From Bryum argenteum (taxonomy: Eukaryota > Streptophyta > Bryopsida > Bryales > Bryaceae), in NCBI GenBank assembly GCA_037043015.1, contig CM073328.1, positions 15,721,495 through 15,785,494 on the forward strand: DNA of 64,000 nucleotides. Direction: 5' to 3'. The notes below the pieces were generated by a model. It saw nothing but the letters and a program-made list of their open reading frames with translations. It was not told the origin of the DNA and searched no databases. Of the stretch, positions 7,134 to 45,794 are shown piece after piece; positions within the stretch are counted from its first letter, which is position 1, and each line of letters opens with the position of its first letter. The translations under genes and the position numbers were made by a program.

Positions 7134-7168
<35 letters not shown>

Positions 7169-18117: not shown

Positions 18118-21100
18118 GAAGGATATGGATCACGCAGAATATACGAGCAATAAGGAGAATGCTCCCCCGTGTATCAATCATGTTACACCAACCCGTGAAC
18201 ATAGTCGTGGAAGCCACGGACAATTATCATTGGGAGACGAATTTTGGCATCCACATCCGCCCATAATCGACGCAACAGCTCCCCTTTGAATTCAAAGAAG
18301 GAGATTACACAAGAGCAATGAACACGTTGGCGTGCACCTAAAAGATGGAAATGGAACAAAGGATAGGAAGAGTTCGGAGACACAAATTCAAGCAGGCGAC
18401 AATGTTGGAGGTCTTATTTTATTTCCCCATCAATGCGCAGTCCGTATTTTAGAGGTTCATACAACAAGACTCGCGGATATAAATGTAGATGGCGAATCGA
18501 TGGTAGATTGCATTGGGCAGATTATTCGATGGTCAAAGGACTCAATCGAAACGATTGGAGGTTACAATGGTAATTATAGTCCAAGTTTAAGTGAGGTCGC
18601 CCGCCATTTTGATTTTTGTGAAGAAGGGCCCTCTGGATTCAGAAGCAATGACAAGCAGAATTCAAACTTCAGAAGTGAGGACCACGACATAGGAGGCAAT
18701 GATTCACAACATGAACAAAGTCCGTCAGTGATACAGCACATGTGCAGTGTATCCGGAGTTGATGGATTGCCACAAAGCTCACAAAAGCGAATATATGTTA
18801 TGGTTCAACGTGCAACACAAGAAAGAAGACCGAGAAAAATTGGGATAGCACGGTCTGAAAAAGTTACACTAAAAAATGTGCAGATGGACTTGCGATCAAG
18901 AAGTTGCTCAAAAGGATGCTTGGAGAAGTTGGAAGCAAGTGCTGTGCTGATGAAACGATTCAAAGCGTGGGGATCGGAGAAGTATGAAGAGAGGGCATCT
19001 TGGATTCTAGAAAACCTTACAGATGTATACAACGACAAAATGGATAAGTTTGAGACCAAACTTTGTGGGCAGTGCATTTGCAATGGTTGCTATGCGATCG
19101 CGCTTGGATATTCAAGGAGGCGGATAGAAGAATTGAAATCCGACATCAGAAGCAGGGGGATTGTTTCGGAAGTACATGATATCCAATGCAATGGCAGAAT
19201 ATCGGCGGTACATGGAAATACAGTCCATGTACCGCGTGCATCATCAGGGGTACAATCAATGAAGACAATCTTTGAGAGATTTGTAATGGAAGCTGGATGC
19301 ACTCAACCTCATAGGCAATGTCGAAGAAGGAGCGATAATGAAATGGTGCCGCTGGTGCTACTACCCGTAAATACTACACGAAAGGATGCTTTTCGAGCAG
19401 TGTCAAGAAACGTGGAGAAATTGACACTTGAAAATTCACCAGGAGTTTGTTCATTTTATCGTATGTGGCGCACAGAGTATTCCTACGTACAGATACCACC
19501 AAACTCTCGATTTTCCAAATGTCAGATTTGTTGGGAATATCGAACGTGCTTGGAGTCAAGTACCACAAACCCAACACAGAAACGTTTGATTGAGGAAAAT
19601 TTGGTACTACATCAGGCATTGCAGATCGAAGAAAGGAAGGATTATTGGGAGGCTAAAGATAATGCAAAATTGTTTCCAAATCAATCTCTCTGCTTCATCG
19701 TTGATGGGATGGACCAAAATACTACAATGGTACCAAAGTTACGACAATCGGTGAAGGGAATCGAAGGGCGGTATGTGAAGACACATTTGTGTGGTGTTCT
19801 TGTACACGGAGAAGGATTGTATTCCGACGTTTGGATTGACTCCCATCATAAGCATGATAGCAATCAGGTGATTACATCCATAATGCATGCAATTGCCGAT
19901 GTGAAAGCTCGACGTGGTGGCATTCTTCCTCCAACCTTACGCATCCAAGCGGACAACTGTGGCAGAGAAAACAAGAACCAATACATGTTCGGTATGTGTG
20001 CCGCACTTGTTGGTTTGGGCTATTTTGCGGAGATACATTTGGCTTTTCTTCTTGTTGGGCACACGCATGAAGACATAGACCAAAGATTCAGTGTTATATC
20101 TGGAATACTCAAGCGGCAAGACATCGATTCAATGCAACAACTGTTAGATTTGGTGAAGGGAGGCACATCTCCTACAGAAACATTCAGAACTTCTCGTCAC
20201 TTGGAATACATCTGGGATTGGAAGAAATTCATCACTTCGTACCTGTTTACAGGTCCAGACGCATTTGTGGGGATTTCCAAACCCCATCACTTCAGGTTTT
20301 ATTTGAAAAACAATAAGCCATTCGTTCAGACCAAGAACTATGCCCGAGATTCAAATTGGGAGCCTGCAAATGGCTATCAATGCCTGAATGAAGTGCCGGA
20401 ACGAGGTTTAAAACCGGAGTTTGCCAAAGTGGAGGAGGCAACTGAACAAGAGATGCGAGCATTGGAGGAATTTATCAAATGGAAAGAACGTTGCGTCTTG
20501 AAGTTGATGCAAGTTGAGCGTAATCTACAAGCCATAGATGATACAAAGTGGTTGTTACAATATCTCAAATGAATTTCCCGAGAAGAGCAACTTAGAGGTG
20601 TGGGAACAAACAAGCTTTTGGCCCGAAAGAATGGAGTCGCAATTTCATGTTGAGAGGGAGGAGGATATGCATGGATTGGGTGGACTTCAAAGAGGCGAAG
20701 GCAGTCCGGACGCACCAACACCGAGTGCAATCTTGAATCATCTTCCAGCAGTGCAAGAAAGGGGATATTTTGGGCCGAGACGTGACAAACCACAGAGCAA
20801 GAGCTTCAGACCTACAAGGAAGCAAGGACATGTTCGTACGGCACACGTTACATCTTTGGAGGAAACCACATCGGATCCTTATCCGGAATTTGATCCATTT
20901 AATGATGTCAAAGTTGGACATTTTGTTGCTATGAATAGCAGCATTGATGATATGAGGTTGGGCATACCTTTTTTTCTAGGAAAGGTGAAGGCTACAAGAA
21001 ATGTTTCCACAGGGTCAGGATGCATGAAGATAATATGGTATTGGCCGAAACCAACAATTCTGCAAGATGACCCAGGGATGTGGACTCACAGATACAGAAA

Positions 21101-21356
21101 CTGTCTGAAACGAAGATGGATTCCGTCTTATGAGCCGTCGGATTGGGTTGACTTAGATACAGCAATCACCTCATGGGCGCCATCTCCAAAAATTGAGACT
21201 TGTATGGTTGAAAAAACCATCGTGCAGAAAGAGATATCCATTCCAAAAGCAATGACGTTTCATTTGTTGGAGTACATGGCAAATCAATCCCATACAACAA
21301 ACGACGAGCAAGTGGACAACAATGCACGTGCAACAGAAGAAAACGACTCCGAGTAG
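18118..21356 (+). CDS. DUF7869-type transposase-like protein of the 19-kb element (interrupted)
   Basis: The first frame opens after an acceptor at 18117, runs through an in-frame TGA at 18287-18289 and continues open to 20572. Then the sensible frame shifts and ends at 21356. The middle holds 'CQICWEYR' (zinc-ligand-like), then three acidic motifs spaced like an RNase-H/DDE core: 'CFIVDGMDQNTTM', 'LRIQADNCGRENKNQ' and 'FLLVGHTHEDIDQRFS'. This arrangement is that of DUF7869 proteins, found in plants and protists and linked to DNA transposons. The C-terminal part has 'VGHFVAMNSS', 'GIPFFLGKV', 'IIWYWPKP' and 'RRWIPSY', recalling a BAH-like chromatin-binding fold. An upstream Cys cluster 'CGQCICNGCY' lies near 19070-19090. 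It stands 0.33 kb from the right TIR, pointing toward it. The TGA and the frame change near 20560 suggest this copy is inactive unless spliced. Family name is from memory of motifs. Confidence 0.75.
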
Positions 21357-27627: not shown

Positions 27628-29906
27628 ATGGTGGCGTGCGTCCTACTCTTCTATTCAATTTTGGGCGTGGTAATGTTTTGGTACCCAAATGTAGCTGCAA
27701 TGATCCTTCAATGTGAAGTGTAAGTTTGCCTCTCTCTCAATGCTCTTTCCTTTCCAATCAGTTATGGTGAGTACTTCAAGCTCCTTGTTAGTGCTCTTTC
27801 CTTTGCAATCACTTCAAGAGATTATAGTGACTGCTTCAAGGGTGTTCTCTCCTTGTCGTTGCTCTTTCCATTGCATTGATGGTAGATTTACTTAGATTGA
27901 TCGAATCCGTTCCTCTCCTTGCTTCATAAAGGTTGTAAACTAGTTTTGCTAAGAATGAAATAATAGCTTTAATGTACGACATTCTCAGAAGCTTATTCTT
28001 GCTTAATCTAGGTGTGAACAAGAGGCGATGCTGGTGGTATTACTAGCACGCGCCCTGCATGCAGTGAGAAACTATCTTGAACACAAAGTTTGACCTCCCA
28101 ATGAAAGTTTGCTTTCATTCGATCAAAATCCGCGACGTCCCTTGCACCAACAACTTATCTCCACATAGGCATTTGTAACATCACTCACCTCTGTCATCGG
28201 TTTGCGTACGTAAGCGCTCAAGTTCACCTCTAAATCAAACAGATTGCTACAAACGCTCGACATCTCGAGCTTAGACACTAGTGTTAAATACGGTCCTCTA
28301 CGCCTTTAGTTGTGAAATCTCCATACATAGAATATGGTGGCGTGCGTCCTGCTCCTCCATCCAATTTAAAACATAGTCTTGTTTTGGCACCCAAATGTAG
28401 CTGCAATGATCCTTCAACCTAAATTGTAAGTGCCTCTCTCCATGCCAATGCTCTTTCCTTTGCAATCACTTTTGGAAATTATTTATAGTGAATGCTTCAA
28501 GGGTGGTTTCTCCTTGCCATTGCTCTTTCCTTTGCATTCACTTTTCAAAATTATAATGATTGCTTCAAGGATGTTTCTCGTGTCAATGCTCTTCCCTATG
28601 CAATCACTTTTGGAGATTATGGTAAATTATGCTTCAAAGGTAGTTCCTCCTTGCAAGTGCTTGTTTCCTTGCAATCACTTTTGGAAATTATGGTGACTAT
28701 TTTGAGAATAGCTTCTTATTTGAGGGTGACTATTTTGAGGATAACTTCTCCTTGTCAGTGCTCTTTCCTTTGCAATCACTTTTGGAGATTATGGAGATTA
28801 TGGTGACTGCTCTGGTAAGAATGGAATGATCCTCACCTAGCTTTTATTCTCAGAAGCTGATTGTGGCTCAATGCAGGTGTGAACAAGAGGCGATGCTCGT
28901 GGTGTCACCAGCCGGTGTCCTGCATGCAGGGAATCCTGTGACCAAGCACACCATCTGGACTTATGCATCGGGATCGGCCATGGGCTCCAAACTCCCAAGA
29001 CGGGACACTCTCATGAGCAAATTGTATTTTCCGGGGCAGATGGGAATCTCTATGTCGTGGAGGGATCGCGAATCAAGGTGAGCATACGAGAATCTTATGT
29101 TAATCTATGATATCGTGATAGGAAGCCAACATTGTGCTCAAAAAACATCTTTCAGCCATTTCTGATCTACTCATGCAATGTACTCTCTGAGTTTGGTGAC
29201 AACCTCATTGGAGACCATGGGCCATGGTAAACCAGCAAAAAGCAAATTCATTTGTCCTATCCTGGATCAATTAGAGTTGTCTGCTTTACAGTAACTGTTA
29301 AGTTTGAGTTTCAGTCGAGATCTTCTGGCTTCTTTTAAGAGTCATGCGAAGTGAGGTCCTTGACATGATCTGTTTGTGCTTGTTCAGAGGACTACAATAA
29401 ACTTGAACAATCTGATCGCCAACACACCTGGGTTTACGGCAGATGGAGCAATGGTCACTAGTTTATTGAGCAATACCGTATTCCTGTTGAACAAGAACAT
29501 TGGGGCTCTCATCCGCAGATTCGATCATTCGCGGAGAATGTGGGGGGAAAGCCAGAGCGTGATTCCGAGAAGAAGTTGCCAACACTGCTCTTTCGGAGGA
29601 CTGACTATACAGTGCTTGTGCACGATATCAGAACGGGAGCTCTTCACTGGAGAGTCACGGTGGCTGATATCAAAACCATGCCACTGGGTTCGCCTTGTAT
29701 GGAAGTTCCTATCAGTCTGTTGTCGTCCAAAGGTGAAACAATACAGTTCTCAATTCTCAGTTCTCTTTTATCCACTTGGAACATTGGTGTTATGTCTCAA
29801 TAATGTCAAGTGTGTGAAGTTTGAAGGTTGAGCTTGCTCTCGTTGTGCAGGTGTATACTTGAAGAATCTGCCTCCGGATTCGCCTTCTGCATTTCCACCT
29901 CAGTGA
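27628..29906 (+). pseudogene. IRE1 luminal-domain-like gene, copy A (frameshifted)
   Basis: Leader exon 27628-27719 is open: 'MVACVLLFYSILGVVMFWYP' + 'NVAAMILQCE', a signal peptide or anchor, with donor GT|GTAAGT. A second decayed leader copy (28334-28425, 'MVACVLLLHPI' then stop) lies in the same intron. Exon 2 (28877-29077) begins 'CEQEAMLVVSPAGVLHA' but has a 4-bp deletion against copy C near 29003, shifting the frame. Exon 3 (29398-about 29738) has 'NLIANTPGFTADGAMV' and 'TVFLLNKNIGALIRRF', then two extra bases near 29545, after which 'LFRRTDYTVLVHDIRTGALH' is in another frame. Exon 4 (29851-29906) ends 'PPDSPSAFPPQ' and stop. The two central exons match the plant IRE1 sensor ('VKNTPHVSDDG', 'TVFLVDAKTG', 'MRTDY...VLWNVTVA'). 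Confidence 0.75.
28440..28805 (+). repeat. Degenerate about 65-80-bp tandem repeats in first intron of copy A
   Basis: The unit core is GCTCTTTCCTTTGCAATCAC then TTTTGGAGATTATGGTGACT and GCTTCAAGG. About five units lie here and further ones at 27738-27870. The same unit fills the first introns of copies C (36985-37280) and D (40845-41110). Copies B and E have one remnant unit (e.g. GATGCTCTTCTCGTTTTGGG at 32909). Confidence 0.8.
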
Positions 29907-29981
29907 ACAACGAAATTGGAAAGAACAGGGTAATGAAAGGTCTTAAATTCTACCAATGAGAACTTAGACCTATTCTCTCGT

Positions 29982-30050
29982 CCATGGCTGATTGCCCATG
30001 GCGGATTGCCCACGGCCCATTGCCAATGGCCGATTGCCCATGGTCGATGG
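29982..30050 (+). repeat. 15-bp tandem repeat after copy A
   Basis: Four to five units of CCATGGCNGATTGCC. Related short arrays follow copy C (about 38513-38555) and copy D (42600-42682) at the same place, so it is part of the duplicated A/C/D unit. Confidence 0.8.
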
Positions 30051-30995
30051 TCACGATGTACTAGATAAGAGGACTTTTTTGACTTATGTGGGAAAAAAGT
30101 AAATATATACTTAGCATGAATTAAGATGAGTTACCTTAACCATTGTTGACTTGATGAAGCAAGTATTCGAAAATTTAGGAATATGTTTAGGAATGAGTGA
30201 GGAAGAGGAGCTATTTTCACATATATGATACCTTGTATAATCGTAGAAAATTGAATGAACCTTGATAATTACTTTTCAAATTTAAGCACATATTCATTCA
30301 CAATTGCCTTATAGGTAAAGGGATTGAATCTCTTGACAAAATCTAGCAAAAACTTTGTGACAATTCTCACAAGTGACTCTTAATGAGGCCATGTAAAAAT
30401 GAAGAATGATATCAATTTGAATCAATGTTTCATGGAGATTGCATTGACGATTAGATGTTAAAGTTGGAGTGGGTGTTTATTCCTTTAACGCCAACAAGGG
30501 CCAATTTAGGTTCACTTCGCCGTTACATCCAGACAAATTGAATGGTAAAAAATAGAAGCACTCATTCTTGCCAACATTGTATTAACTTTGTCATTGAGCA
30601 TGCTTGTTGCAACAACATGAATCTCATAGCATATGTGAAAACTAATAGTAGTTGAACTTTGAAGTTTTGCAATCTTCCTTTTAATTTTTGAAAGTGTTCT
30701 AAGAAAAAAGTCATGAGTCGGTATGTTGGAGGGGAAAAAGTGAGTGGGTATGTTGGAGGGGAAAAGTGAGTGTTGAGATGTTGCTCCATAGTGACCTTCA
30801 CTATGCAACAACATTAATTAATTAGTCTGAAGCCTTTTCTGCCACCTGGACCCCCTTGAGGGGATGCCACATGGACCCTATGAGTGACATTACATAATAT
30901 TTTCATTTAATTCCACGAGTGAGCCCCCAACACCAGCCTCTTGTACTTTCTCATGGAAGGGAACAATTACAAACAATATGGTATAAATCTCCTCC

Positions 30996-31077
30996 CTCAA
31001 GACCCCTGCCCCAAGACCCCTGCTCTCAAGACCCCGCCCAAGACCTCGCACCAAGACCCCCGCCCCCAAGACCCCTC
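30996..31077 (+). repeat. C-rich tandem repeat (CAAGACCCCTGCC)n
   Basis: About six imperfect units of 12-15 bp (CAAGACCCCNGCC). The strand asymmetry (C-rich plus strand, G-rich minus strand) could allow non-B structure. Confidence 0.8.
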
Positions 31078-31155
31078 CAGCTGAACTCTACGGTCCGCAT
31101 TTCAGGAGCATAAGTGAGATTTTGGGAGATAGTGCAGGGATCTAACATAGTGCAG

Positions 31156-31280
31156 GGAACTTAAAGAATCTGATGACCAACACACCTCGCCAGGATGGAA
31201 AAGTGGTTTCTAGTTCCCTGCCCAATTCTTGTTGAGCACGGTCTCGGGCTCATGTGCAAATTCGACCATTCCCGACCTGT
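31156..31280 (+). pseudogene. Lone exon-3 relic of the IRE1-sensor-like family
   Basis: After CAGGG the sequence reads 'NLKNLMTNTPRQDGKVVSSS' and, after frame loss, CAAATTCGACCATTCC, equivalent to 'NLIANTPRFTADGAMV...RRFDHS' of exon 3. No exons 1, 2 or 4 are next to it. It is a sixth, isolated remnant between copies A and B. Confidence 0.65.
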
Positions 31281-32489
31281 GCTGCAATACTGCAAGGCCC
31301 AAAATGAGGATGAAGACCATTCATCGAATCATAGTGAGTATGAGAAGAAGCCCTATCATTAAATTTCTGGGTTTCATTGTGTTCTATGATGGAGGTCCAA
31401 TCGATCTGGTTTCGTCTGTATAGTGAAGTTACTAAGTATCCACATTCACACACATATTTTTCTTGCATTTATTGCACATTCAATCAACATTGTGTACATG
31501 AGATCTTAGATATCTATAGTTTCAATACATCTCAAAGTCTTTAAGTGTCTTTTTCTCCACTTTACAAATCAGTTTTGAAGTCGATGAGGTAGCAATCCCA
31601 GCCTTGTTCCCTGGTTATCTTTAACCATAGCAGCGTGCACTAGATGGGTTTGAACCTAAACTAGTTCAATCTCCAGATGTTATGACTAAGAAAGAATTAC
31701 CTTGATATTGTACACATCCTAGGATTTGTTGTGAGCTCATGGCTCATGAGCTCTTGTAATTTATGACTTTAAAAACATACACAAGGAAGTAGTACGACTT
31801 TCAATCCAATGCATACTAAAGTATATGATTGGACTTCCAAGAGAATATAAGAAGCTACGTAATGATGTTCCAATAAAGTTGTAATGAAGTTGCAATAAAA
31901 CTACAACCGTGTGACAATGAAGTTGCTAAAGTTGCATCAAAGTTGCCTCAAAGTTGCAATAAAGTTACAATAAAGTTGCACCTTCAAAGTGCAACTCTAA
32001 TCACAACCAAAGCTGTGAATCTATTTCACTTCATGATGACTTAAAATTGTGTCTAATTAGTATTCACTCAAGCCACTTTTTAATCCACAACAAATGTCAA
32101 TTATTTCATTCATGCTTTGGCATGCAATTTTGCCCTTCATATGACTCTTAAGTTAATATTATGAAAGATCAAGAAATTGATTAATCATGTAATCATCACA
32201 TGTGTGATGAGTCAAGTCACGCCACATGAGTCAAACAACATAAGTGGGAATATTAGTACAACATCGTGAGAGTTTTTTTTCTGAGTTGATTGGGTAACAA
32301 TTTATAACATAAATGTAAAGCATCCAAAGATTTGACACATAGTAGTAAGGGAACGGAGTTGAAAGGAAATATTCTTATACCTAGGCATTTAGAGATTAGA
32401 GTTGAAAAGGAAGGTAACGAACTCTCGTGTAACGAACCTCCCGACGAATGTCTCGTTTCCAAAACAACCCAAATTCGCGTCAAAACCCT

Positions 32490-32600
32490 TGCGCCAACAA
32501 CACGCGCACCCTCGAACCGAAACCCTTGCGCCAACAACCGAAACCCTTGCGCCAACAACCGAAACCCTTGCGCCAACAACACGCACACCCTCGAAGCCCT
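32490..32600 (+). repeat. 20-bp tandem repeat upstream of copy B
   Basis: Units AAACCCTTGCGCCAACAACC or variants occur four to five times. A single related unit (CTCTTGCGCCAACGACTTGT) lies upstream of copy E (44279), so the array expanded after the B/E split or shrank in E. It lies about 170-280 bp before the copy B ATG. Confidence 0.85.
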
Positions 32601-32767
32601 TGCACCAACAACTAGTCGCCACGTTTACATCTACACGTCACTCCCCTTCATCACTGGTCACCAAACCTCTTCAATTTCACCTACAATCTAAACCAATTGC
32701 TAAAACCGCTCCTCATCTCGAGCTTAGCCGCTCTTGTGAAACACCCCCTTTCCTCTTCAGCTCTAAA

Positions 32768-34142
32768 ATGTGCATCATAAACATAATTATGCTTGTGTGC
32801 GTTCTCGTCCTCCATTCACTTCTGGGCGTGGTGTTGTTCCTGCAACACAATGCAGCTGAGATGATTCTTCACCATGAAGTGTACGAGTCTCTCTCCTCGT
32901 CTCCCTGTTCGATGCTCTTCTCGTTTTGGGGATTTTGGTGATTGCTTGCAGAATAATTCAACTCGAAAAAGGCGTGATTCGTGATGCAAACCGGTTCTGC
33001 TTAGAATGGAATTGCCATCACCTGCCATTTTCCGCGAAAGCTTGATATAAGGGTGGCATTTGTGCAGGGGTGAGCCAGAGGCGATGCTCGTGGTATCACC
33101 AGCCGGCCACCTCCATGCAGTGAATCCTCTGACCAGACAGAGTATCTGGGCAATTGCAACGGGATCGGCCATGGGCTCCAAGCTCCCAAGAACGAACATT
33201 CGCGACATCACCTCGAGTGGTGAATACTCTGATAACCAGACTGTGTACTCTGGAGCAGGGAAACTCTATGTCGTGGAGGGGTCGCAAGTTAGGGTGAGCA
33301 TCCCAGAACTTTGCAATCTCTAAGACCCTGATGTTCGCATACACGAAACCAACATTTTATTGTAGGAACTTTCTCCTCATATGTGATCTACACATCCAAT
33401 ATTCCAATGTTCTCTGACAGTCTCATTGAGTGTCTATGGAGATCTGGCTGACCAGTAAATTTGCACAATCATTTGTCTTCTCCTATTCCATACGGACTCG
33501 CATCAATTACGGTTGTCGTTATTTTGATGTTAAATTGGAAACTTCAACCTCTTGGGTCCTCAACACGTACATTCAAGCGTTTTGAGGAGGTGATAATTTG
33601 TTTGTGATTCTCCAGCCGACTGCAATAAAGTTGAGGGATCTGATAGCAGACACACCTCGGGTTACGGCAGATGGAAGGATGATCAGGAGTTCAGTGAGCA
33701 GGTTCTCATTCCTGTTAAACAGAGCCACGGGGGCTCCTATCTACAAATTCGACCGCTTAGGGAGTGTGTGGGCGAAACTAGAGCCTGGTTACAAGAAGGT
33801 GCCGACACTGTTATGTCGCAGGACTGAGTATTCAGTAATTGTGCAAGATGTGGCGACGGGTGCTATTCACTGGCAAATATCGGTGGCGGATATCAGAATC
33901 ATGGGTCGTCGTTCGTATGACGAAATTCCTCTCGGTCTGTTTACGGCTAAAGGTGAAACATTGCATTTTCCTGAAGCATATGCTTTTCTCTTCTTGGAAG
34001 AGTGTTGTTCTGTTTCAGTTCTGTGAAGTTCTGTGAAGTTTCTGAAGTATGAGCCTTCTCTCCTTGTGCAGGTAAATTCTTGGAATACTTGCTTCCAGAT
34101 GCGCCTTCTGCAGAACGATCTCAGGGGAGAATTAGTTCGTGA
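32768..34142 (+). CDS. IRE1 luminal sensor-like, single-domain protein, copy B (intact, 248 aa)
   Basis: Exons 32768-32880, 33068-33293, 33616-33952 and 34072-34142 join in frame: 747 bases, 248 residues and TGA. Junctions are GAAGT|GTACGA, GCAG|GGGTGA, AGG|GTGAGC, CCAG|CCGACT, AAAG|GTGAAA and GCAG|GTAAAT. Exon 1 encodes a hydrophobic leader 'MCIINIIMLVCVLVLHSLLG', so ER entry is likely. Exon 2 has 'EAMLVVSPAGHLHAVNPLTR' and 'SIWAIATGSAMGSKL', like the IRE1 opening '(LVAALDG)TI(Y)LVD...IIWSF.SGSPI'. Exon 3 has 'DLIADTPRVTADGRM', 'SFLLNRATGAPIYKFDR', 'LCRRTEYSVIVQDV' and 'AIHWQISVADIR', like IRE1 'KNTPHVSDDGA', 'TVFLVDAKTG', 'MRTDY' and 'VLWNVTVA'. IRE1 senses unfolded protein in the ER lumen; this protein lacks the membrane span, kinase and RNase domains. 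Function (decoy, partner or secreted) is inference. Only copy of five without a lesion. Confidence 0.8.
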
Positions 34143-34289
34143 AAGGCCTAATTCCAGCCATGAAAGTTGTACTCATTTTCTTGTTTATGGTTGGTGGTCA
34201 TAGTGTTCAAAATGAGAGACAAATGTATTGTTGCGATTTCATAGTGCTTCATTAATATCCTTCTCTGGTGGATTTCTATCCGCTGTGAT

Positions 34290-35740
34290 AATAATGAGAA
34301 TAAGATTCAATGATAGAGAGTCTTAATGGCAACAAATAAATCAAGGAAGCTAACAACAAGGCCGTGTTCGACAAGGAGAAGAGATGAAGGAGGAGACTAA
34401 CCTTTCTAAACAAAGGGAAAGCTATAAGCTATATGTGGAAAAAATTGTTGAGGCATTGATGTGTCCTTGAGCTTGAAGCTTGTGAGGTAAGCACATTCCC
34501 TTCGGTAGATCTTCCTCATCTTCTAATTGTTGAAAGGTTTTGGCACCCCTAGGTTTTTGTGATGATTGATTGATTATTTTGGCAGTAGAATTGGTAGCTG
34601 TACTTGGCTTTTTCTTATCTCTAGAGGCATGATTGTGGCCTAGCACTTCAAAAGTGAGAGGCCTTAAGCTGATAGGATAAACTCGAAGGGCTTCAACACC
34701 CTTGAAAATCTTGTGTAAGCCATTTTTGTTTATCCCATCAATTCGAGAGGATAGTAAGAATCTTAAGTAGTCTTGAGATTGAAATTTGTATGTACATACA
34801 TTATTATACTATATTCCTCAATACTCTTTGATATTCTCACTCAAATAAAGGCTATTCAATTGTTTCGTACACCTTATCCATATGATTGAACCTTGATGTT
34901 GGTATCTCAATCTTCAAAACACATTCATCTGGAAGATAGGGAGTATGTATGTTTTTGAAAGAGCCAGTGAGAATTGTTTAACAATTTCTACTAAGTTTAT
35001 TTATTTGAGATGGTGAAGATATGGCAAATGATCTCAATGTGGACCAATATTGAACACTGACGTTTAGACGTTAAGGTTCTTCTGGACAAAATCTTCTCAC
35101 CCTTTTATTGTTTGGAGGTCCAATTGAGGTCAATTTGGCAATACATCCAACCACAGAAGGGTTCAAGGTGGAAGCAATGATTCTTCTAACCACATTTCCT
35201 GATTTTTTTTAACTACGTATATCATTTCGTCGCCAATTTGGTTAAATTGAGGTGTGAATGCTACACAGAATTTGTGCCACGAAGGTAAAAGCATCGCAGA
35301 CAAGAATGAGTCATTGACATGCATGATTACACCAATCATTTCTTCCTAGGAAGTTGCTATGGGAGAAGACGATGAAGGTTAGAACTAGGGCACCTTCATT
35401 CAACTCCGGCCCCTCTCACTATTCACCAAATCTGCACTTAAAGATTCAAGCAGAAAATAACACTTCATTCAACTACTCACTGTGCCATCACACCAGTGGC
35501 TACTCCTTGCAAAGATTTGTAGCCTTGAATTGAGCTAACTCAAAGTGCGGCAACACATCACACATGAGATTAGCTTTCCTTGATTTTGGTTGCAACTTCA
35601 TGTCACTGCTACCCATGATTGGAGACTAGAGGTTTCCGGCTTTGAATGTTGTTGAGATGAGCACTAATTTGATGGCCAAATATTACGCATTAGGAGTCGA
35701 CTTTTAGAAACTTTGCAAGATAAAACGGCCTCCTTGTCCT
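34290..35740 (+). repeat. 3' flanking block of copy B, duplicated after copy E
   Basis: The block matches 45880-47330 in the same order, from 'GCTA(A/T)CAACAAGGC(C/T)GTGTT' to ACTTTGCAAGATAAAAC(G/A)GCC. No gene is seen. The offset of about 11.6 kb equals the B-to-E distance, so B and E arose by a segmental duplication that included 3' flank. Confidence 0.75.
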
Positions 35741-35858
35741 TGTTCTTCGAGAAGCTGGCACATCAAAATTCTCAAGCAAGCTCAGACTTTGAGAGGCTCA
35801 ATCTACATATATGAGCAATGGAGCTCCCCTTACTCAATATGCAGTTGGGGTCACCGAT

Positions 35859-36186
35859 CCTCGCCACTAAGGGCGGTATAGAAAGGGGGTGGCGCCTCCC
35901 TGCGTGCCCACAAAACCCTGCCCGCCCACAAAACCCTGCCCGCATAAAATAATTTGGGAGTAAATTTGCCTCCTAAATTTTTGTTGTTGATGTCATCAAT
36001 GCCATCACAGGACTCTTCCAAGGAAAAATAGGGGTCGCTGATCCCATTTTTAAACTCAAAATCTGAAAAAAAATATTGTAGGGCCTCCAAAAATGCAAAA
36101 ATTGTATTTATACGAATTTCTGCCGGGCAGCGAGTGTGGGCGGGCAGGGAGGCGCCACCCCCTTTCTATACCGCCCTTAGTGGCAA
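35859..36186. mobile_element. 328-bp MULE-like MITE with 11-bp target duplication
   Basis: Inverted ends GCCACTAAGGGCGGTATAGA (35863) and the reverse complement ending 36184 continue with GGGGGTGGCGCCTCCCTG..., giving TIRs over 50 bp. GGGTCACCGAT flanks both sides (35848-35858 and 36187-36197), an 11-bp target-site duplication as seen for Mutator-like elements (usually 8-11 bp). No coding capacity. It lies between copies B and C. Confidence 0.85.
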
Positions 36187-36872
36187 GGGTCACCGATGGT
36201 CCTCTTGCCTTTCAACTGTAAGTGCAAGTTTAGTTGAACAACCCTCAGTCCCTCCTCGTTTCACATCTCCAATTATTAGCAACCAATTTGTAAGAATTTG
36301 AGTCTTTGACATTTAAGTTCATCAATCACAAATGAGATGAATATTTAAAAACTCCACTTTTGAAGGCACCTCAACCCTTAAATGCCAAGCCCCTCTAAAA
36401 TAGAAAATGGCTCTATAGAGATGATTCAAGACGAGGTGTTTTCACGCCCGGGAGCATTGGGGGTTAAGTACAAAACTATGCAAAGAGTTGTACATCGTTT
36501 AGAAGTTGTACTCTTTAGCCTTCAATAAAGAGAGTTGAAAAAAAAAAAAATTGACATTTAGGTGTACACGGAATGGAGTTAAAGGCAAGGTGAAAAACTA
36601 TCTTGAAAAGGAAGTTTGATCTCCCAATGAAAGTTTGTTTTGAATTGATCCAAATTATACATTACGCAAGGTCAAGTCCCTCACGCCAACAACGTGTCCC
36701 CACATAGGCATCTCAAACGCCTCTCAACAATGTCACTAGTTTGTGCACATAAGTGCTCAAGTTCACCTTTTAATCAAACTGATTGCTAAAAACGCTCAAC
36801 ATCTCAAGCATAGTCACTACTTTCAAACACCCTCTACACCTTTAGTTGTGAAATCTCCATACATAGAAAAAT

Positions 36873-38439
36873 ATGGTGGCGTAGATGCTCCTCTTCTATC
36901 CAATTTTAAACGTAGGACTAGTTTCAGCACCCAAATGTAGCTTAAGTGATCCTTCAACCTAAAATGTAAGTGCCTCTCTCCTTGCCAATATTCTTTTCTT
37001 TGCGATCACTTTTGGGAATTACAATGACTACTTCAAGGGTTGTGTCTCTTTGCTAGTGCTCTTTCCTTTGCAATCACTTTTGAAAATTATAGTCACCAAG
37101 GTAGCTCCTCTTGTCAATGCTCTTACCTTTGGAATCACTTTTGGAGATTATGGTGACTCCTTCAAGGGTAGTTTGTCCTTGTTGGTGCACTTTTCATTGC
37201 AATCACTTTCGGAGAATATAATGACTACCTCAAGGTGTTTTCTCCTTCTCAGTGCTCTTTCGTTTGCAATCAAGGCTCATTCAACTCAAAATCGACGCCA
37301 TTCCTCTGCTGGCTCCATAAAGGACGTGAACTGGTTCTGGTTAGAATGGAATGATCCTCACCTAGCTTTTATGTGCGAAATGCGCAGAAGCTAATTATCG
37401 CTTAATGCAGGTGTGAACAAGAGGCGATGCTCGTCGTGTCACCAGCCGGCGTCCTCCATGCATTGAATCCTGTGACCAAGCACACCATCTGGACTTATGC
37501 ATCGGGATCGGCCATGGGCTCCAAACTCCCAAGACAGGACCCTCACTCTCATGAGCAAATTGTATTTTCCGAGGCAGATAGGAATCTCTTTGTCGTGGAG
37601 GAATCGCGAATCAAGGTGAGCATACGAGAATCTTATGTTAATCTATGATATCGTGATAGGAAGCCAACATTGTGTTCAGAAAACTTCTTTTAGCCATTTC
37701 TGATCTACACATGCAATGTACTCTCTGAGTTTCGTGACAACCTCGTTGGAGACCACGGGCCATGGTAAACCAGCACAAGGCAAATTTATTTGTCTTATCC
37801 TGGATCGATTAGAGTTCTCTGCTAATTGCAGTCAGTGTTGAGTTTGAACTTCAGTCGAGATCTTCTTCATTATGGGGAGTCATGCGAAGTGAGGTCCTTG
37901 ACATGATCTGTCTGTGCTTGTCCAGAGGACTACAATTAACATGCACAATCTGATCGCCAACATACCTCGGTTTACGGCAGATGGAGCAATGGTCATCGGT
38001 TTATTGAGCAATACCAAATTCCTGTTGAAAAAGAACAGGGGGGCTCTCATCCGCAGAGTCGATCATTCTGGAAGAATGTGGGGGAAACGAGAGCATGATT
38101 CCGAGAAGAAGTTGCCAACACTGTTCTTTCGGAGGACTGACTATGCAGTAATTGTGCACGATATAGAACGGGTGCTCTTCTCTGGAGAGTCACGGTGGCT
38201 GATACCAAAACCATGCCACTGGGTTCGCCTTGCAAGGAATATCCCATCGGTCTGTTGTCGTCCAAGGGTGAACATTACGATTCTCAGTTGTGTATGCTTT
38301 TCTTCTCTTGGAACAATGCTGTTATGTTTCAATTTTGTGAAGTTTCTGAAGTTCAAAGGTTGAGCTATTCCCTCCTTGTGCAGAAGTGTACATGAAGAAT
38401 CTGCTTCCGGATTCGTCTTCTGCATTTCCATCGCAGTGA
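36873..38439 (+). pseudogene. IRE1 luminal-domain-like gene, copy C (one-base frameshift)
   Basis: The leader exon (36873-36965) is dead: 'MVA' then TAG. Exon 2 (37411-37615) is open: 'CEQEAMLVVSPAGVLHALNP' ... 'IWTYASGSAMGSKLPRQDPH' ... 'FVVEESRIK|gtgagc'. Exon 3 (37926-38267) is open through 'NLIANIPRFTADGAMV', 'TKFLLKKNRGALIRRVD' and 'LFFRRTDYAVIVHDI', then one base is missing against copy D (ATATAGAACG versus ATATCAGAACG, about 38162), shifting the frame before 'GALLWRVTVAD'. Exon 4 is 38384-38439; its acceptor is CAG|AAGTG. The first intron holds the tandem repeat (36985-37280). This copy served as the reference for the deletion in exon 2 of copy A. Confidence 0.75.
36975..37280 (+). repeat. 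First-intron tandem repeats of copy C
   Basis: Four to five units with the core TTTGCAATCACTTTTG(G/A)A(G/A)ATTAT, as in copies A and D. Units differ at 10-25% of positions. Confidence 0.8.
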
Positions 38440-39029
38440 TTATCGAAATAGGAAACAACTGGGTGGTGAAAGGGTTTTAATTCGGCGAGAGAGATCTCAG
38501 ACCTATTCTCTTAGCCATGGCCGATTGTCCATGGCCTATTGTCCATGGGCGATTGTCACCTAAAAAAGAGAGAAAAGGATTCTAAATTTTAATTTTGCAA
38601 TATTTTAAAGAATAATTAATATGAATAAGGGTGTGTTCAGGAGCCACTAGAATATAATGATATCTAAATCTCATTGTTGTTGCCAGGGTCGAGGGTGAAG
38701 AACAATATATTCAAGATGCTTCACGAAAGTTTTCATTCTAGAAGCGGTGGCTGCCGGGGGGTGATCTAACAATCTCACTGATTCCATCCAGGAGAGGTCT
38801 CAGAATTGAACGAGCCCCATAACTCCGTTGAAACTCTGAGGGAATATGTTGAGACTTCAAATACGACAACCGTGATCATGCCATTACACGTTGTTGCCTC
38901 GCGCGTGGAGGACTATGCTCGGACATAGGTCGACCGGAGTATAAATGCTCCTAGTTTGATAGATGTTTTTAACTAGTTTGAACGGTGTCACGAAGATGTC
39001 AATTTCTAGCATGAATCACGTTGCAATGG

Positions 39030-40051
39030 TACAATTGTAGAGGCCAAGCAGGGCAAGGAGGTGATTGTGGTTGGGGAGGACTCAATAGAGGAGGGTGGGT
39101 AGGAGGTGACCATGGCAGAGGAGGACTCAATAGAAGAGGGTGGGTAGGAGGTGACCGTGGCAGAGGAGGGCTTGAGAGAGAAGGCTCCTTAGGAGGTGCC
39201 GACGGAGATGGAGAACATTGAGCACCAGTGGAGGAGGAAGTTGCAGAGGACGTGACCGTGGCGGAGGTCTCGAGAGAGAAAGCTGATGACGAGCATGTCT
39301 CGGTAAAGAATGATCACAAGCAGGTCTTGGTCGAGAAGGCCTAGTACGAGCATATCTCGGTCGAGCACGAGGAAGACTCCATAGTGAAGGCCGAGCACGA
39401 GCATGTATCAGTGGAGGTGGAAGTTGCACAAGGTCTCATCAAAGGAGGTCGCGCAAGAGGGTTGGTCTAATGATAAGGCAGCTCAAGAGGAAGGCTGGAC
39501 TAATGGTCGGCTTAATAACAGGGCGGCTCAAGAAGAGGTGGCGCGAGAGGTTGTCGAGCCGGAAGTTGTCACGCCTGAATTGTGACATGAGAGGTTGTAG
39601 CACCTGAGGACGTAGCCCGAGAGGTCGTAGCACCGGAAGTCGTAGCACCGAAGATCGTAGCGCAAGAGGTTCATAGCGCGAGGGTTTGTAGCTTGAGAGG
39701 TAGTAGCGGTAGAGGTGGTTGCGGTAGAGGTGTTCGCGCGGGAGGTTGTACCACAAGAGGTTGGAGGGTAGGAGATTGCCGTACATGAGGTTACCGCGGA
39801 GGGGGAGACCAAGCCGGAAGAGCAAGTTGAGTTTATGATGATTTGTTCAAAGAAGGAGATAGCTTTCAACTTGGTGAACGCAAACCCAACAAATTTGAGC
39901 ATGATGTCTAGATGAAAAAAGAGATTGCAAAAAAGTAAGGGAAAGGGAAGGCGGTTTCTGATATTGCAAGCAACAAGGAGTCACCAAGCATCGATGCCGC
40001 ACGATCGAATGTGGAGAGTGATGTTCAAGGCTATTGGGACAAAGAGTTCTA
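39030..40051 (+). pseudogene. Decayed Glu/Val-rich repeat-coding relic
   Basis: Between copies C and D one plus-strand frame reads as degenerate repeats: 'EDSIEEGG*EVTMAEEDSIE' (39080-39150), then 'VEEEVAEDVTVAEVSREKAD' and 'DEHVSVKNDHKQVLVEKA*Y' (39220-39345), 'EVVAPEDVAREVVAPEVVAP' (39590-39650), and finally 'TKPEEQVEFMMICSKKEIAF' + 'NLVNANPTNLSMM' with a stop near 39913. Several internal stops are TAG or TGA and the frame changes, so it is dead. Minisatellite units of about 45 bp (39060-39180) and 15-18 bp (39590-39730) underlie it. No family was recognised; the purine bias is strong and strand-specific. Confidence 0.55.
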
Positions 40052-40733
40052 AGGAGAATCTCACGTTTCTCATGTTGTAGAGCCTAGTATTACATGAAAC
40101 ATTAGGGCAACAACCATCAACCCAATTGGAACCACAACAATTACACCTTTCCTCCCGGATCCATGTAATCATTCCCTTCACCATTCTCAATGTGTAATAA
40201 TCGGTTGTTTTTGTCGAATCGATTTTCATGTTGAATAATTGCCCCCGCTTGACACGAAGTTGAGAACCGCTAAAGCCTCGACTATGGTATATTATGGAAG
40301 TGCCCACTCATACCAATTGGCTGTTCTTCCACTTGCATCACAGGTTGGAGTACGCATCAGACTCTAACTACAGTAAAAGAAACTTTTAAAAGTAAGTGAA
40401 TCATCTTGATTTTACTTATCGATATGTCTCTTTTAAAAACAAGTTGCAAGAAGATGACCCATAGATCTTCTTCATGTACTAATAAGTTGCACCATAGGTT
40501 TTTGTGTTGATGGGTCAATCGTCTCGGTAGTAAAATTGCTACCTGTATACTTGACTTTTTCTTATCTCTATTGGCATGACTTAGGCAAGCCACCAAAGTT
40601 GTAGTTGCCTCCGTCATAGGTCCGCATACGTGAATCAAACAAATTGCTAAAAACGCTTGACATCTCGAACTTAGTCACTATTCTGAAACACCCTTTACGC
40701 CTTTAGTTGTGAAATCTCCATAAATAAAAAATT

Positions 40734-42536
40734 ATGGTGGTGTGCGTCCACCTTTTCTATCCAATTTTAAACGTGAGTCTTGTTTCGACACCCAAATGTA
40801 ATTGCAATGATCCTTCAACTTGAAATGTAAGTGCGCCTCTTCTTGCCAATGCACTTTCCTTTGCAATCACTTTAGAATATAATAGTGATTCATTCAAAGG
40901 CGGCGACTCCTTGCGTGCTTCAAAGTTGCTTTCTCCTTTCAATATTCTTTCCTTTGCAATCACTTCTCAAGATTATAGTAACTTCTTCAAAGGTAGTTTC
41001 TTCTTGCGATCGCTCATTTCTTTGCAATCAATTTGGAAATTATGGTGACTACTTGATGGTAGCTTCTTTTCTCAATGCTCTTCCCTTTGCAATCACTTTT
41101 GGAGATTAGGATAGTTCAACTCTAAACCGACGCCATTCCTCTGCTTGCTTCATGAAGGACGAATACTAATTGTGCTCATAATGAAATGATCCTTATTTAA
41201 TTCTTTAAGCTGATTCTTGCTCAATAAACAAGAGGCGATATTACCCGTCGGCGTCCCCTTGCATGCAGTAAATCATGTAACCAAGCACACCATCTGGACT
41301 TATGCATCAGGATCGGCCATGGGCTCCAAGCACTATTACAATTTGAGGGGGTTTGCAACGTTTTCTTCTCGAACGTTGCCCAAGTCTAGCAACATTTTGG
41401 AACTCGCTAGATCAACGTTCTTAAGAAAATAAGCAACGTTATCAAATCACCAAGCAACGTTATTTATAAACTACTAGGAAACATTGCTTACTTTTTTGAG
41501 AACGTTGTTCAAGCAAATTCCAAAACATTGCTAAACTTTAGCAACATTTACACAAAAGCAACGTTTGTACTGTTGCAAACCTCTCTCTTTTCCAATAGTG
41601 GCGCTATGGTTCTAAGACGGGATACTCACTCTGATGACCAAGTTGCATTTTCCGGGGCAGATGGGAATCTCTATGTCGTAGAGGGATCGCGAATCAAGGT
41701 GAGCATACCAGAATATTATAATATATGATATCGTGATAGGAAGCCAACATTGTGTTCAAAAACTTCTTTTACCCATTTCTAATCTACACATGCAATGTAC
41801 TCTCTGAGTTTCGTGACAACCTCATAAGAGACCATGAGCCATGGTAAACCCGCGAAAAGAAAATTCCTTTGTCTTCTCCTGGATCGATTAGAGTTGTCTG
41901 CTTAATGTAGTAACTGTTAAGTCTGAGCTTCAGTCGAGATCTTCTTCTATTACGAGTCATGCGAAGTGAGGTCCTTGACATGATCTGTTTGTGCTTCTCC
42001 AGAGGGCTAAAATAAACTTGAGCAATCTCATCGCCAACACACCTCGGGTTACGGCAGATGAAGCAATGATCACTAGTTTATTGAGCAATACCGTATTCCT
42101 GTTGAACAAGAACACGGGGGCTCTCATCCGCAGATTCAATCATTCCGGAAGAATGTGGGGGAACCAGAGCGTGATTCCGAGAAGAAGTTGCCAACACTGT
42201 TCTTTCGGAGGACTGGCTACGCAGTAGTTGTGCACGATATCAGAACGGGTGCTCTTCTCTGGAGAGTCACGGTGGCTGATACCAAAACCATGCCACTGAG
42301 TTCGCCTTGCAAGGAACTTCCCATCGGTCTGTTGTCGTCCAAAGGTGAAACATTACGTAATAGTTCTCAGTGGTGTATGCTTTTGTCCTCCTGGATTATT
42401 GCTGAACATATGTTTCAATTCTGTAAAGTTTCTGAAGTTTGATGTTTGAGCTTGCTCTCCTTGTGCAGGTGTTTACCTGAATAATCTGTTCCCAGATTCG
42501 CCCTCCGCATTCCCATCGCAGCGACTAACGAGATAG
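40734..42536 (+). pseudogene. IRE1 luminal-domain-like gene, copy D (MITE insertion and frameshifts)
   Basis: The leader exon (40734-40826) starts 'MVVCVHLFYPIL' but then loses frame. The acceptor of exon 2 is gone (GCTCAATAAACAAGAGGCG where A has ATGCAGGTGTGAACAAGAGG). Exon 2 (about 41226-41698) is split by a 270-bp MITE at 41331-41600; its second half is open and well kept ('RRDTHSDDQVAFSGADGNLY' 'VVEGSRIK|gtgagc'). Exon 3 (42003-42344) has 'NLIANTPRVTADEAMI' and 'TVFLLNKNTGALIRRF', one base short near 42165, then 'LFFRRTGYAVVVHDIRTGAL' 'LWRVTVAD'. Exon 4 (42469-42536) gives 'VYLNNLFPDSPSAFPSQRLTR' split over the junction, ending TAG. Confidence 0.75.
41331..41600. mobile_element. 270-bp CACTA-type MITE inside exon 2 of copy D
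   Basis: Starts CACTATTACAATTTGAGGGG and ends TTTTCCAATAGTG; both ends share CACTATT and, inside, GAG(G/A)GG then GTTTGCAAC. The interior repeats GCAACGTT or its complement about ten times. Direct insertion into GGGCTCCAAG of exon 2 is plain from the other copies. A clear 3-bp target duplication was not seen, so the right junction may have altered. Confidence 0.8.
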
Positions 42537-42599
42537 GAAACAACTGGGTGGTGGAAGGTCTTAAATTCGGTTAGAAAGAACTTAGACCTATTCTCTTGG

Positions 42600-42682
42600 C
42601 TATGGCCCATTGTCCATGGCGGATTGTCCATGGCGGATTGTACATGGCTCATTGTCCATGGCCGAATGTCGATGGCCAATTG
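42600..42682 (+). repeat. 15-bp tandem repeat after copy D
   Basis: Five units of (C/G)CCATGGC(G/C)GATTGT, the same family as after copies A and C. Confidence 0.8.
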
Positions 42683-44443
42683 TATTTGTTTGATGGTCAC
42701 GGTGTACTAAATGAGAGGAATTTTTCTCACTTTTTGTGGGAATAAAGTTAGTATCATAGTCAGAGCTTGGTGATGAGCATTTTGAATTGGTGAATGAGAG
42801 ATAAGTTCCTCCTCAATATGAATAAAGATGAGTTACTTTAACCATTGTTGAATCGATGAATCGGATACTCGAAAAGTCTAGAAATGTCTCAAGAAATGAG
42901 TGACCACTAGATCTACTGCCCATAAGGGAAGTGGATCATAAGATTGAACCAGTTAAAGGAGCGGACTCCAAAACAAGGCTACCTACCAACTTGAGCTCAA
43001 TGAGCTAATAAAAGCGTCAATTCATGAATTGTTGCTAAGGGGCTACATCAAGGCCAAGCTTTCCTCCATTTTAAATAAGAAGCTTTCTTGATGTAGTGTT
43101 TTAATCTTTTTCGACATTCTTGACATTCATGAGTTTGCAAGTGAGAAAGAAGAGATATTTTCAGGTATGTGATACCTTGATGAATTGGAAAAAAATAAAT
43201 GAACCTTGATGATTACTTCTCAATTTGAAACATTAATTCATTCACAATCCTCTAAGACGTAGAGAGATTGAGTTTCTTAACAGAAGCTAGAAGAAACTCT
43301 TTGACAAGTCCCACAAGTATCTTACGAGGCAATGTTAAAATTAAGAATGATTTCACTTTGAATCAATGTTTCATGGAGATTGCATTGATGGTTAGATGTT
43401 AAAGTTGGACTAAGTGTTCAATTCTTTAATTAATACCAACATTGGCCAATTCTTCGGTCAATTTGGCGTTACATACATACCTTCCATTGAGCATGCTTGT
43501 TGCAACAATATCAATCTAATAGCAATAGTGAAAACTAATAGTCCTTTATTCACTTTTGGACATGATGTTGGGCACAGCCAAGGCATGGGTATCACTTTTT
43601 GTCAAGACTAATTAGGTGATTTTTGGTTGAAACATCCAAAGTTCATCATTTTTCCATTTTTATCAATTACAAAGAGTAAAAAATCATTTTAAAATATCGT
43701 ATATGTAATTGGGATCAAGATGCACATTCCTAAGAAAAAAATTATTCAATTTTTTTATTTTTGGATCATTGAACCCTCCACAGTAAATTGCATATTGGTG
43801 GGATTTGCACGCATTATGGTGCAAAAATTATTAATTGTTTATTTGTCAAACTAACTATTTTATAAAATGCACAAGTACATGTAAGTCATATCCAAAAATG
43901 GTATCAAAATGTGATCATTTGATGTATCGAATGATTTTTTCTTAGGATTTTGTGTCATTAGGACAAACTTACTTTTTCAACTAAAATACCTAATAAAAAC
44001 TCTTAATATTCTTCAATGCGAATGAATCTTTTTTTTTTTTTGGTAGGCTATAAGTGCTGTAAATTGAAACCACATTTGGTGTTCTCATACTTAACTTCAT
44101 TTAGAAGATGGACATGTTTGACACACTTGCATGAGGTGAAATTGTACTTGAGACAATTTTTTTGGACACCCTTAGCTTAATTGTGCCCTGTTGTTCGTGC
44201 ACACACAATGCAACTCCTATGATTCTTCAACGTGAAGTGTACGAGTCTCTCTCCTTGTTGGTACGCCCACATCCAAAACTCTTGCGCCAACGACTTGTCG
44301 CCACGTTTACATTTTACACGTCATTCCCCTTTATCATTGGCTAGCATACAATTTCAACTGTAATCCACACAAATTGCTAAAACCGTTTGTCATCTCCAGC
44401 TTAGCCACTATTGTGAAACACCCTTTTCCTCTTGAGCTCTAAA
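42683..44443. other. Spacer between copies D and E with duplicated segments
   Basis: Segments at 42830-43530 match the region 30120-30620 downstream of copy A (e.g. TTTCATGGAGATTGCATTGA). A fragment at 44195-44260 (CACAATGCAACTCCTATGAT, TTCAACGTGAAGTGTACGAG) is a further partial leader exon with its donor. No open gene is present. Confidence 0.55.
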
Positions 44444-45794
44444 ATGTGCATTCCAAACATAATTATGCTTTTGTACGTTCTCTTGCTCTATTCACTTATC
44501 CGCGTAATGCTATTCCTTCACCACAATTGCAACCGCCACGATCCTTCAGCATGAAGTGTACGAGTCTTTCTCCTTGTCTCCCTGTTCGATGCTCTTATCG
44601 TTTTGGAGAGTTTGGTGATTGCTTGCAGAGTAATTCGACTCGGGAACGGCGTGATTCGTGATGCAAACCGGTTCTGCTTAGAATGGAATTATCATCACCT
44701 GGCTGCCATTTTTTGCGAAATCTTGGTTTAAGGGTGGCATTTGTGCAGGTTTGAGCCAGAGGCGATGCTCGTGGTATCACCAGCCGGCCACCTCCATGCA
44801 GTGAATCCTCTGACCAGACAGAGTATCTGGGCAATTGCAACGGGATCGGCCATGGGCTCCAAGCTCCCAAGAACGAACATTCGCGACATCACCTCGAGTG
44901 GTGAATACTCTGATAACCAGACTGTGTATTCCGGAGCAGGGAAAATCTATGTCGTGGAGGGATGGCAAGTACGTTAGGGTGAGCACCCCAGAATCTTACA
45001 ATCTACAAGATCCTGATGTTGGCATACACGAAACCAACATTTTATTGTAGGAACTTTCTTCTTCATATCTGATCTACACCTTCGATGTTCTCTGAGTTTC
45101 GTGACAGCCTCATTGAGTGTCTATGAAGATCTGGCTGACCAGTAGGTTGCAGATTTTTCTTGTCCTCTGCATCGAATCACGGTTGACTTCATTTTGATGT
45201 TACGTTCGAAACTTCAACCTCTTAGGTCCTCTCCACAAGCGTTTTGAGGAGATGATTTGTTTGTGATTCTCCAGCCGACTGCAATAAAGTTGAGGAATCT
45301 GATAGCAGACACACCTCGGGTTACGGCAGATGGAAGGATGATCAGGAGTTCAGTGAGCAGGTTCTCATTCCTGTTGAACAAGGACACGGGGACTCCTATC
45401 CACAAATTCGACCGCTTCGGGAGTGTGTAGGCGAAACTAGAGCCTGGTTACGAGAAGTAGGTGGCGACACTGTTCTGTCGGAGGACTGAGTATTCAGTGA
45501 TTGTGCAAGATGTGGCAACGTGTGCTATTCACTGGCAAATCTCGGTGCCTGAGATCAGAATCATGGGTCGTCGTTCGTATGACGAGATTCTACTCGGTCT
45601 GTTTACGGCTAAAGGTGAAACATTGCATTTTCCTGTTGCATATGCTTTTCTCGTCCTGGAACAGTCTTGTTCTGTTTCAGTTCTGTGAAGTTTCTGAAGT
45701 ATGAGCCTGCTCTCCTTGTGCACCTCAATTCTTGGAATACTTGCTTCCGGATGCGCCTTCTGCAGTACGATCTCAGGGAAGAATTAGTTCGTGA
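44444..45794 (+). pseudogene. IRE1 luminal-domain-like gene, copy E (several lesions)
   Basis: Very close to copy B. The leader (44444-44557) starts 'MCIPNIIMLLYVLLLYSLIR' but one extra base near 44525 leads to a stop. Exon 2 (44749-44978) reads 'FEPEAMLVVSPAGHLHAVNP' to 'YSGAGKIYVVEGWQVR' then TAG, from extra bases before the donor. Exon 3 (45275-45614) has TAG for the Trp codon at 45428-45430 and an inserted TAG near 45458. The exon 4 acceptor is changed from GCAG to GCAC (45719-45722). Its long, near-perfect exon 2 match to B shows a recent common origin. Confidence 0.75.

Follow-up and report, generated by a model that had tools for sequence, protein, structure and literature searches.

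Sensor-only paralogues of IRE1 near the full-length gene in the moss Bryum argenteum: a largely broken family with three intact copies

In the unfolded protein response, the widely conserved sensor IRE1 normally joins sensing to output in one chain, and a stretch of the Bryum argenteum genome raises the question of whether the sensing half has given rise to genes of its own and, if so, whether any of them still works. The stretch (hereafter the window) comprises 64,000 nucleotides of contig CM073328.1 (C8:15721495-15785494), and own-genome searches were carried out on the 258.8-Mb assembly of 25 contigs. Repeat and tblastn searches showed that positions 27628-45794 of the window hold five direct copies on the plus strand that are homologous to the luminal (sensor) domain of IRE1, at ~28.3-29.9 (A), 32.8-34.1 (B), 37.4-38.4 (C), 40.7-42.5 (D), and 44.4-45.8 kb (E). 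A first-pass annotation had described a tandem array of five four-exon genes. Five direct homologous copies are present, but only B has a complete four-exon frame, and an array of five genes is not supported because the other four copies carry disabling lesions. Our preferred reading, a tentative one with somewhat less than even confidence, is that sensor-only IRE1 paralogues form a birth-and-death family in which most members are dead and the surviving genes may work by pairing with the IRE1 luminal domain or by binding its clients.

A full-length IRE1 gene (L025) lies at C8:15646894-15652809, ~96 kb upstream of the array, and encodes a leader, luminal exons, a transmembrane segment, a kinase domain (PF00069, 2.5e-38), and an RNase domain (PF06479, 1.5e-41). 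The gene model predicts 912 aa; the start of exon 5 is probably placed 51 nt too early, and ~895 aa is likelier because the three proteins found to match the full IRE1 luminal region (8000 best-sharing candidates scored) lack those 17 residues; none of the results hinges on this length. These proteins are P0004 from a near relative, P0005 from Ceratodon purpureus (KC19_2G041300), and P0006 from Physcomitrium patens (PHYPA_022274), with 92% (overall), 66%, and 65% identity to the full IRE1, respectively. When the exons of the Bryum IRE1 were used as tblastn queries, they matched the leader, exon 2, and exon 3 of the copies, and exon boundaries and the phases of introns 1-3 are the same in IRE1, copy B, and the two further intact genes F and G described below. 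In single comparisons with the Ceratodon IRE1, copy B aligned from the leader through the RTEY motif with 145 bits (E 6e-44) and F with 160 bits (E 2e-49). Exon 3 starts directly after CAG, and the residues HDLFV upstream of it are intron read-through. The family is settled because the full-length gene in the same genome matches the copies; the sequence evidence for their IRE1 ancestry is strong, and the earlier identification of a leader joined to an IRE1 luminal-domain paralogue holds, with the leader intact in B, F, and G. The full-length gene, the sole full IRE1 found in this genome, has a local change at the end of exon 2 (L025 2286-2511), which reads ILRRNKVE where VEG-type endings occur in P0004, P0005, and the copies.

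It is very improbable that the copies belong to another PQQ-like or beta-propeller family and not to IRE1. Searches of Pfam and PDB with single sequences lacked the power to identify a family. Such an assignment would build on scattered matches: F reached 29.4 bits with Beta-prop_ACSF4 (cut-off 133) and 26.5 bits with PQQ_2 (cut-off 27.6), both below cut-off, and in a PDB profile search IRE2 (E 0.36) and IRE1 (E 1.7) were weak matches behind the bacterial propeller YfgL (E 0.045). The PDB match list of B was led, through many tiny pieces, by Cake proteins, which we take to be designed propellers. However, the full IRE1 itself scores lower than F with Beta-prop_ACSF4 (13.9 bits), and the exon structure, the tblastn matches, and the alignments to the Ceratodon protein given above all place the copies with IRE1. 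B and G gave no PQQ_2 or Beta-prop_ACSF4 match up to E 0.1 in the Pfam scan, and the better-fitting propeller family that the first-pass annotation had allowed for did not appear, none exceeding its Pfam cut-off. A scan of bacterial and archaeal contigs found no relative.

The copies are concentrated around the full-length gene. Of the 24 exon matches to a copy-A type query, 23 lie on C8 (15647286-15886521) and the other is a scrap on C6, and all 27 matches of copy B fell in the same 240-kb stretch of C8, the luminal exons of IRE1 being included in both counts. Within this stretch the window and the fetched loci were read, and the remainder was covered by search. The interval from IRE1 to the window contains two luminal-only genes that are intact, namely F (L026, 223 aa) and G (L027, 249 aa). 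Seven copies (A-G) have both core exons, with B, F, and G intact and A, C, D, and E broken. Relics H and I (L028 and L029) lie downstream on the minus strand, and these and the scraps on C6 are more decayed than the four broken copies. Five flanking 10-kb stretches (L034-L038) gave no match in the copy search. In relic I (L029 3255-3504), exon-3 pieces stand in both orientations within 250 bases and form an inverted repeat; outside C8, relics were found only on C6 (L030 6271-6686), where an old scrap of exon 2 is accompanied by a scrap of exon 3 in the opposite orientation. The possibility that the inverted relics regulate through small RNA was considered and set aside; from exon 2 to exon 3 the copies and IRE1 are only ~57-61% alike in bases.

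The structure of an intact copy is illustrated by B, for which a spliced model reproduced the four exons, GT-AG introns, and 248-aa product first proposed. On the plus strand, exon 1 (32768..32880) encodes a leader with a hydrophobic N-terminus (a single hydrophobic stretch, 1-30), and exon 2 (33068..33293), identified by both tblastn and the spliced model, encodes the first part of the IRE1-like luminal domain. Exon 3 (33616..33952) is open, continues this domain with the RTEY motif, and is matched by exon 3 of the full-length IRE1 in tblastn at E 6.8e-24; exon 4 (34072..34142) is a shortened start of IRE1 exon 4 in which the stop precedes the transmembrane segment. The copies thus resemble full-length moss IRE1 (from Ceratodon purpureus, Physcomitrium patens, and Bryum itself) in the leader, luminal exons 2 and 3, and the first codons of exon 4, and share the intron phases of the Bryum gene. 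Unlike it, they are missing two loops of the luminal domain and its C-terminal stretch, together with the transmembrane segment, the kinase, and the RNase. The loops correspond to two exon-3 stretches (~17 and ~28 residues relative to the Bryum IRE1) that are missing from B, F, and G and present in the full-length IRE1s aligned. The copies end 13-22 codons into IRE1 exon 4, ahead of the membrane span, and their luminal domain is not complete to the membrane. Hydrophobicity analysis found one segment, N-terminal, in B, F, and G, whereas IRE1 has a second at 376-395, and no kinase domain was detected in these three by the Pfam scan. The KEN RNase domain (PF06479) is likewise missing from the copies. 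The absence of kinase and RNase parts stated in the first-pass annotation was thereby borne out. An NQT glycosylation sequon is present in B and G at a place where IRE1 reads DQT.

The absence of the output half could be apparent only, if the copies were front ends that run on into kinase exons by skipping or extending exon 4. Nothing was found in favor of this; it is extremely improbable and, short of trans-splicing, contradicted by the searches. With IRE1 exons 4-8 as the query, six matches (E up to 1e-15; 71 of 386 candidates scored) were found, five of which are the full-length gene; the sixth is a 183-nt, 97% identical fragment from the luminal part of exon 4 at C8:15707533. The first-pass annotation had named onward splicing into a kinase exon as a refuting outcome; no second set of kinase exons was found in the genome among these candidates. 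Ribonuc_2-5A (PF06479) matched the genome twice, in both cases at exons of the full-length IRE1, the only such gene found. A motif scan of the window found no RNase motif and gave three isolated matches (two DFG and one HRD-like) to short kinase motifs, none of which lies in a frame resembling a kinase.

The four broken copies of the window, all on the plus strand, were delimited by tblastn and by alignment to intact relatives, against which their lesions were measured. Copy A (28334..29905) has a nearer leader exon at 28334-28417, exon 2 at ~28876-29077, exon 3 at 29388-29734, and exon 4 at ~29853-29905, with a stop in the nearer leader exon, a 4-nt deletion in exon 2, and a 2-nt insertion in exon 3. 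Ahead of it stands a partial sixth copy (27628..28069, plus strand, tblastn), comprising a leader exon (27628-27720) and an exon-2 scrap (28013-28069), and it is the leader of this partial copy that supplied the start coordinate (27628) of the array as first annotated. For copy C (37406..38438), no leader exon was found; its exon 2 (~37410-37615) is open, exon 3 (37926-38269) carries a 1-nt deletion, and exon 4 lies at ~38386-38438. In copy D (40734..42530), the leader (40734-40827) is split between frames, exon 2 is interrupted by a 270-bp insertion (41331..41600) whose terminal inverted repeats are imperfect and start CACTATT (CACTA-like), exon 3 (42003-42346) has a 1-nt deletion, and exon 4 begins at 42471. 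Copy E (44444..45794) has two TAG codons in exon 3 (45275-45616) and a leader split between frames, and its exon-4 acceptor reads CAC, as opposed to CAG in B and G. Tandem repeats with units of ~72 and ~68 bases, apparently one and the same unit, occur at window 28437-28691 and 36992-37272, upstream of exon 2 of A and C, respectively, and 14-base tandem repeats of the type ATGGCCGATTGCC lie directly 3' of copies A and D (29982-30048 and 42602-42684).

Phylogenetic analysis of the DNA separated the seven copies into two groups, F, A, C, and D (type 1) and G, E, and B (type 2), each with 100% support and with 74-93% support inside the groups; relic H is like type 1 by identity only. The sequence lying past the truncation point was then compared for six pairs of a type 1 with a type 2 copy, out of 12 possible, and for six of the seven copies against IRE1, with 300 shuffles. 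The pairs gave z values of 7.2, 6.8, 6.5, 4.9, 2.5, and 2.1, four of the six above every shuffle, whereas the copies against IRE1 gave -0.5 to 1.2. Because the 3' sequence past the truncation is common to both subfamilies and unlike IRE1, the truncation most likely happened once, before the subfamilies split, and independent truncation of the two is disfavored by the same common sequence.

Constraint on the copies was estimated with codon likelihood models over 212 codons, in which exon 2 of D was masked because of its insertion; p values are single tests per branch class against an omega of 1, and relic H (67 codons in the codon file) stood outside every model. Omega was 0.42 for the intact tips (p 0.0016), with values of 0.20 for B (p 0.0005) and 0.33 for F (p 0.014), 0.14 for the inner branches within subfamilies (p 0.02), and 0.63 for the IRE1 branch (p 0.05); the broken tips looked neutral at 1.07 (p 0.81). 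On a tree without IRE1, the intact tips gave 0.45 (bootstrap 0.26-0.79, 0 of 100 at or above 1) and the broken tips 1.03 (0.51-1.93), the intact value being below the broken one in 99 of 100. Changes in type 2 were slower in exons 2-4 than in introns 2-3 (56/634 versus 72/395, p 1.6e-5). On the entire path leading to the intact copies (deep and inner branches plus F, G, and B), 6.3 nonsense changes would be expected under neutrality and none was seen (P 0.002), a test that the post hoc choice of intact copies biases somewhat; the deep branches alone account for 3.2 of those expected (P 0.04), and the broken tips show 2 nonsense changes in exons 2-4 versus 2.5 expected. B and F show signs of constraint at the codon level; in the preferred reading, one or two copies are probably working.

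An array that is dead throughout is almost as likely as the birth-and-death family with working survivors. It would consist of partial IRE1 duplicates that were never, or are no longer, functional, with B, F, and G intact by chance. Of the seven copies that have both core exons, four are broken; the relics are further decayed, the nonsense-only chance that an intact tip survives neutral drift is 0.35-0.46 for each, and the 183-nt fragment at C8:15707533 indicates recent partial copying of IRE1. Several other results weigh against working survivors. Omega of G is 1.5 (p 0.48 versus 1), with no constraint seen, and that of the two deep branches is ~1.25 (p 0.35 versus 1). Parsimony counts of synonymous and non-synonymous changes are small (9 and 6 for B, 4 and 14 for G, and 5 and 7 for E; with D left out, 8 and 4 for F, 5 and 9 for A, and 6 and 17 for C), and a Fisher test on the pooled counts, again with D left out, gave no significant difference between intact and broken copies (p 0.21). 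The slowness of type-2 exons rests on B (p 4e-6, compared with 0.32 for G and 0.43 for E), and it is partly explained by intron 2 of B, which is unusually divergent when its flanks are not; in type 1, exons and introns do not differ (p 0.17), and F exons are not slower (p 0.85). Past the truncation, the C-B and C-G pairs are within the shuffle range. In the protein database no spliced sensor-only product was found, the three matches all being single-exon pieces, and a search with G gave no match; the full IRE1 reading frame of the near relative (P0004) is in this database, on a 3.6-kb contig, and its predicted model (3 sequences, mean predicted local distance difference test score 34.6) is too low in confidence for use. 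ER (endoplasmic reticulum)-retention tails read KDEL or HDEL, and the tails of B, F, and G (RISS, KISS, and PLPS) are none of these. What a dead array does not account for is the omega below 1 on B and F and the bootstrap range of the intact group, the lack of nonsense changes along the whole intact path, and the retention of splice sites and phases in B, F, and G. That a type-1 copy exists in other sequence data as well is shown by P0001, a reading frame from exon 3 that continues into intron sequence on three contigs.

If some copies do survive as working genes, as in the preferred birth-and-death reading, they would make a small protein brought into the ER by its N-terminal leader. Ancestry, truncation, intact frames, and partial constraint are the steps that can be read from sequence, and to these expression, ER entry, pairing, and damping would have to be added. 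The product would keep much of the IRE1 sensor fold and have neither a membrane anchor nor an ER-retention tail, and it could pair with the IRE1 luminal domain or hold the unfolded clients of IRE1. IRE1 signaling begins with luminal association, and a soluble sensor half that pairs without bringing a kinase partner may lower or tune IRE1 clustering and so damp the response. Arabidopsis luminal domains carrying a signal peptide underwent self- and cross-association in bimolecular fluorescence complementation, as reported in PMC4891664. A decoy role is plausible. A more specific form of this proposal, in which one truncation next to IRE1 gave rise to a soluble sensor-only IRE1 class that stayed coding while it split into two diverged subfamilies and that, in at least one or two copies (B, F), still provides ER-luminal partners tuning IRE1, is possible but rather doubtful.

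The proteins might also have left IRE1 control altogether, being secreted or serving as client-binding or chaperone-like proteins of the ER that evolved fast after the truncation. The lack of a retention tail and of a membrane anchor would suit such a role, as would the NQT sequon of B and G and the omega of the deep branches, which is compatible with changed constraint; that omega is not, however, different from 1, and we consider this alternative unlikely.

Elsewhere in the window, a long plus-strand frame with DUF7869 (18290-20569, 7.6e-53) precedes a plus-strand frame of 272 aa (20538-21353) that had no Pfam match; the frames of 18290-21353 look like a mobile element unrelated to IRE1. Three long minus-strand frames at 2977-7135 (451, 623, and 260 aa) had no Pfam match at E 0.001 and are possibly a mobile element. 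A minus-strand frame at 10144-10548 matches ThiF (1.4e-11), and its neighbor at 9447-9872 has no Pfam match; both frames of 9447-10548 look ATG7-like.

In animals, IRE1-beta (ERN2) is a brake on IRE1-alpha. The proposed moss products would resemble it as paralogues tempering the main IRE1, whereas ERN2 is a full-length membrane protein with kinase and RNase. The isolated luminal constructs of Arabidopsis IRE1A and IRE1B (PMC4891664) also consist of a signal peptide and sensor only, but those are laboratory constructs and the Bryum copies natural genes. Arabidopsis IRE1C, reported from Brassicaceae in PMC6883098, lacks the luminal domain, keeps the transmembrane, kinase, and RNase domains, and is suggested by its authors to have originated by partial gene duplication. 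The earlier comparison with Brassicaceae IRE1c as the opposite case is therefore apt, both being IRE1 paralogues that miss one part, with the opposite part lost here. No natural sensor-only IRE1 gene, and no splitting of IRE1 on the sensor side, was found in searches of open-licence papers. In the array, partial duplication has split IRE1 on its sensor side. One full IRE1 and intact sensor-only neighbors occur in one genome, and the idea is therefore directly testable in moss. A natural sensor-half gene would mirror Arabidopsis IRE1C and would offer a simple means of setting the response threshold.

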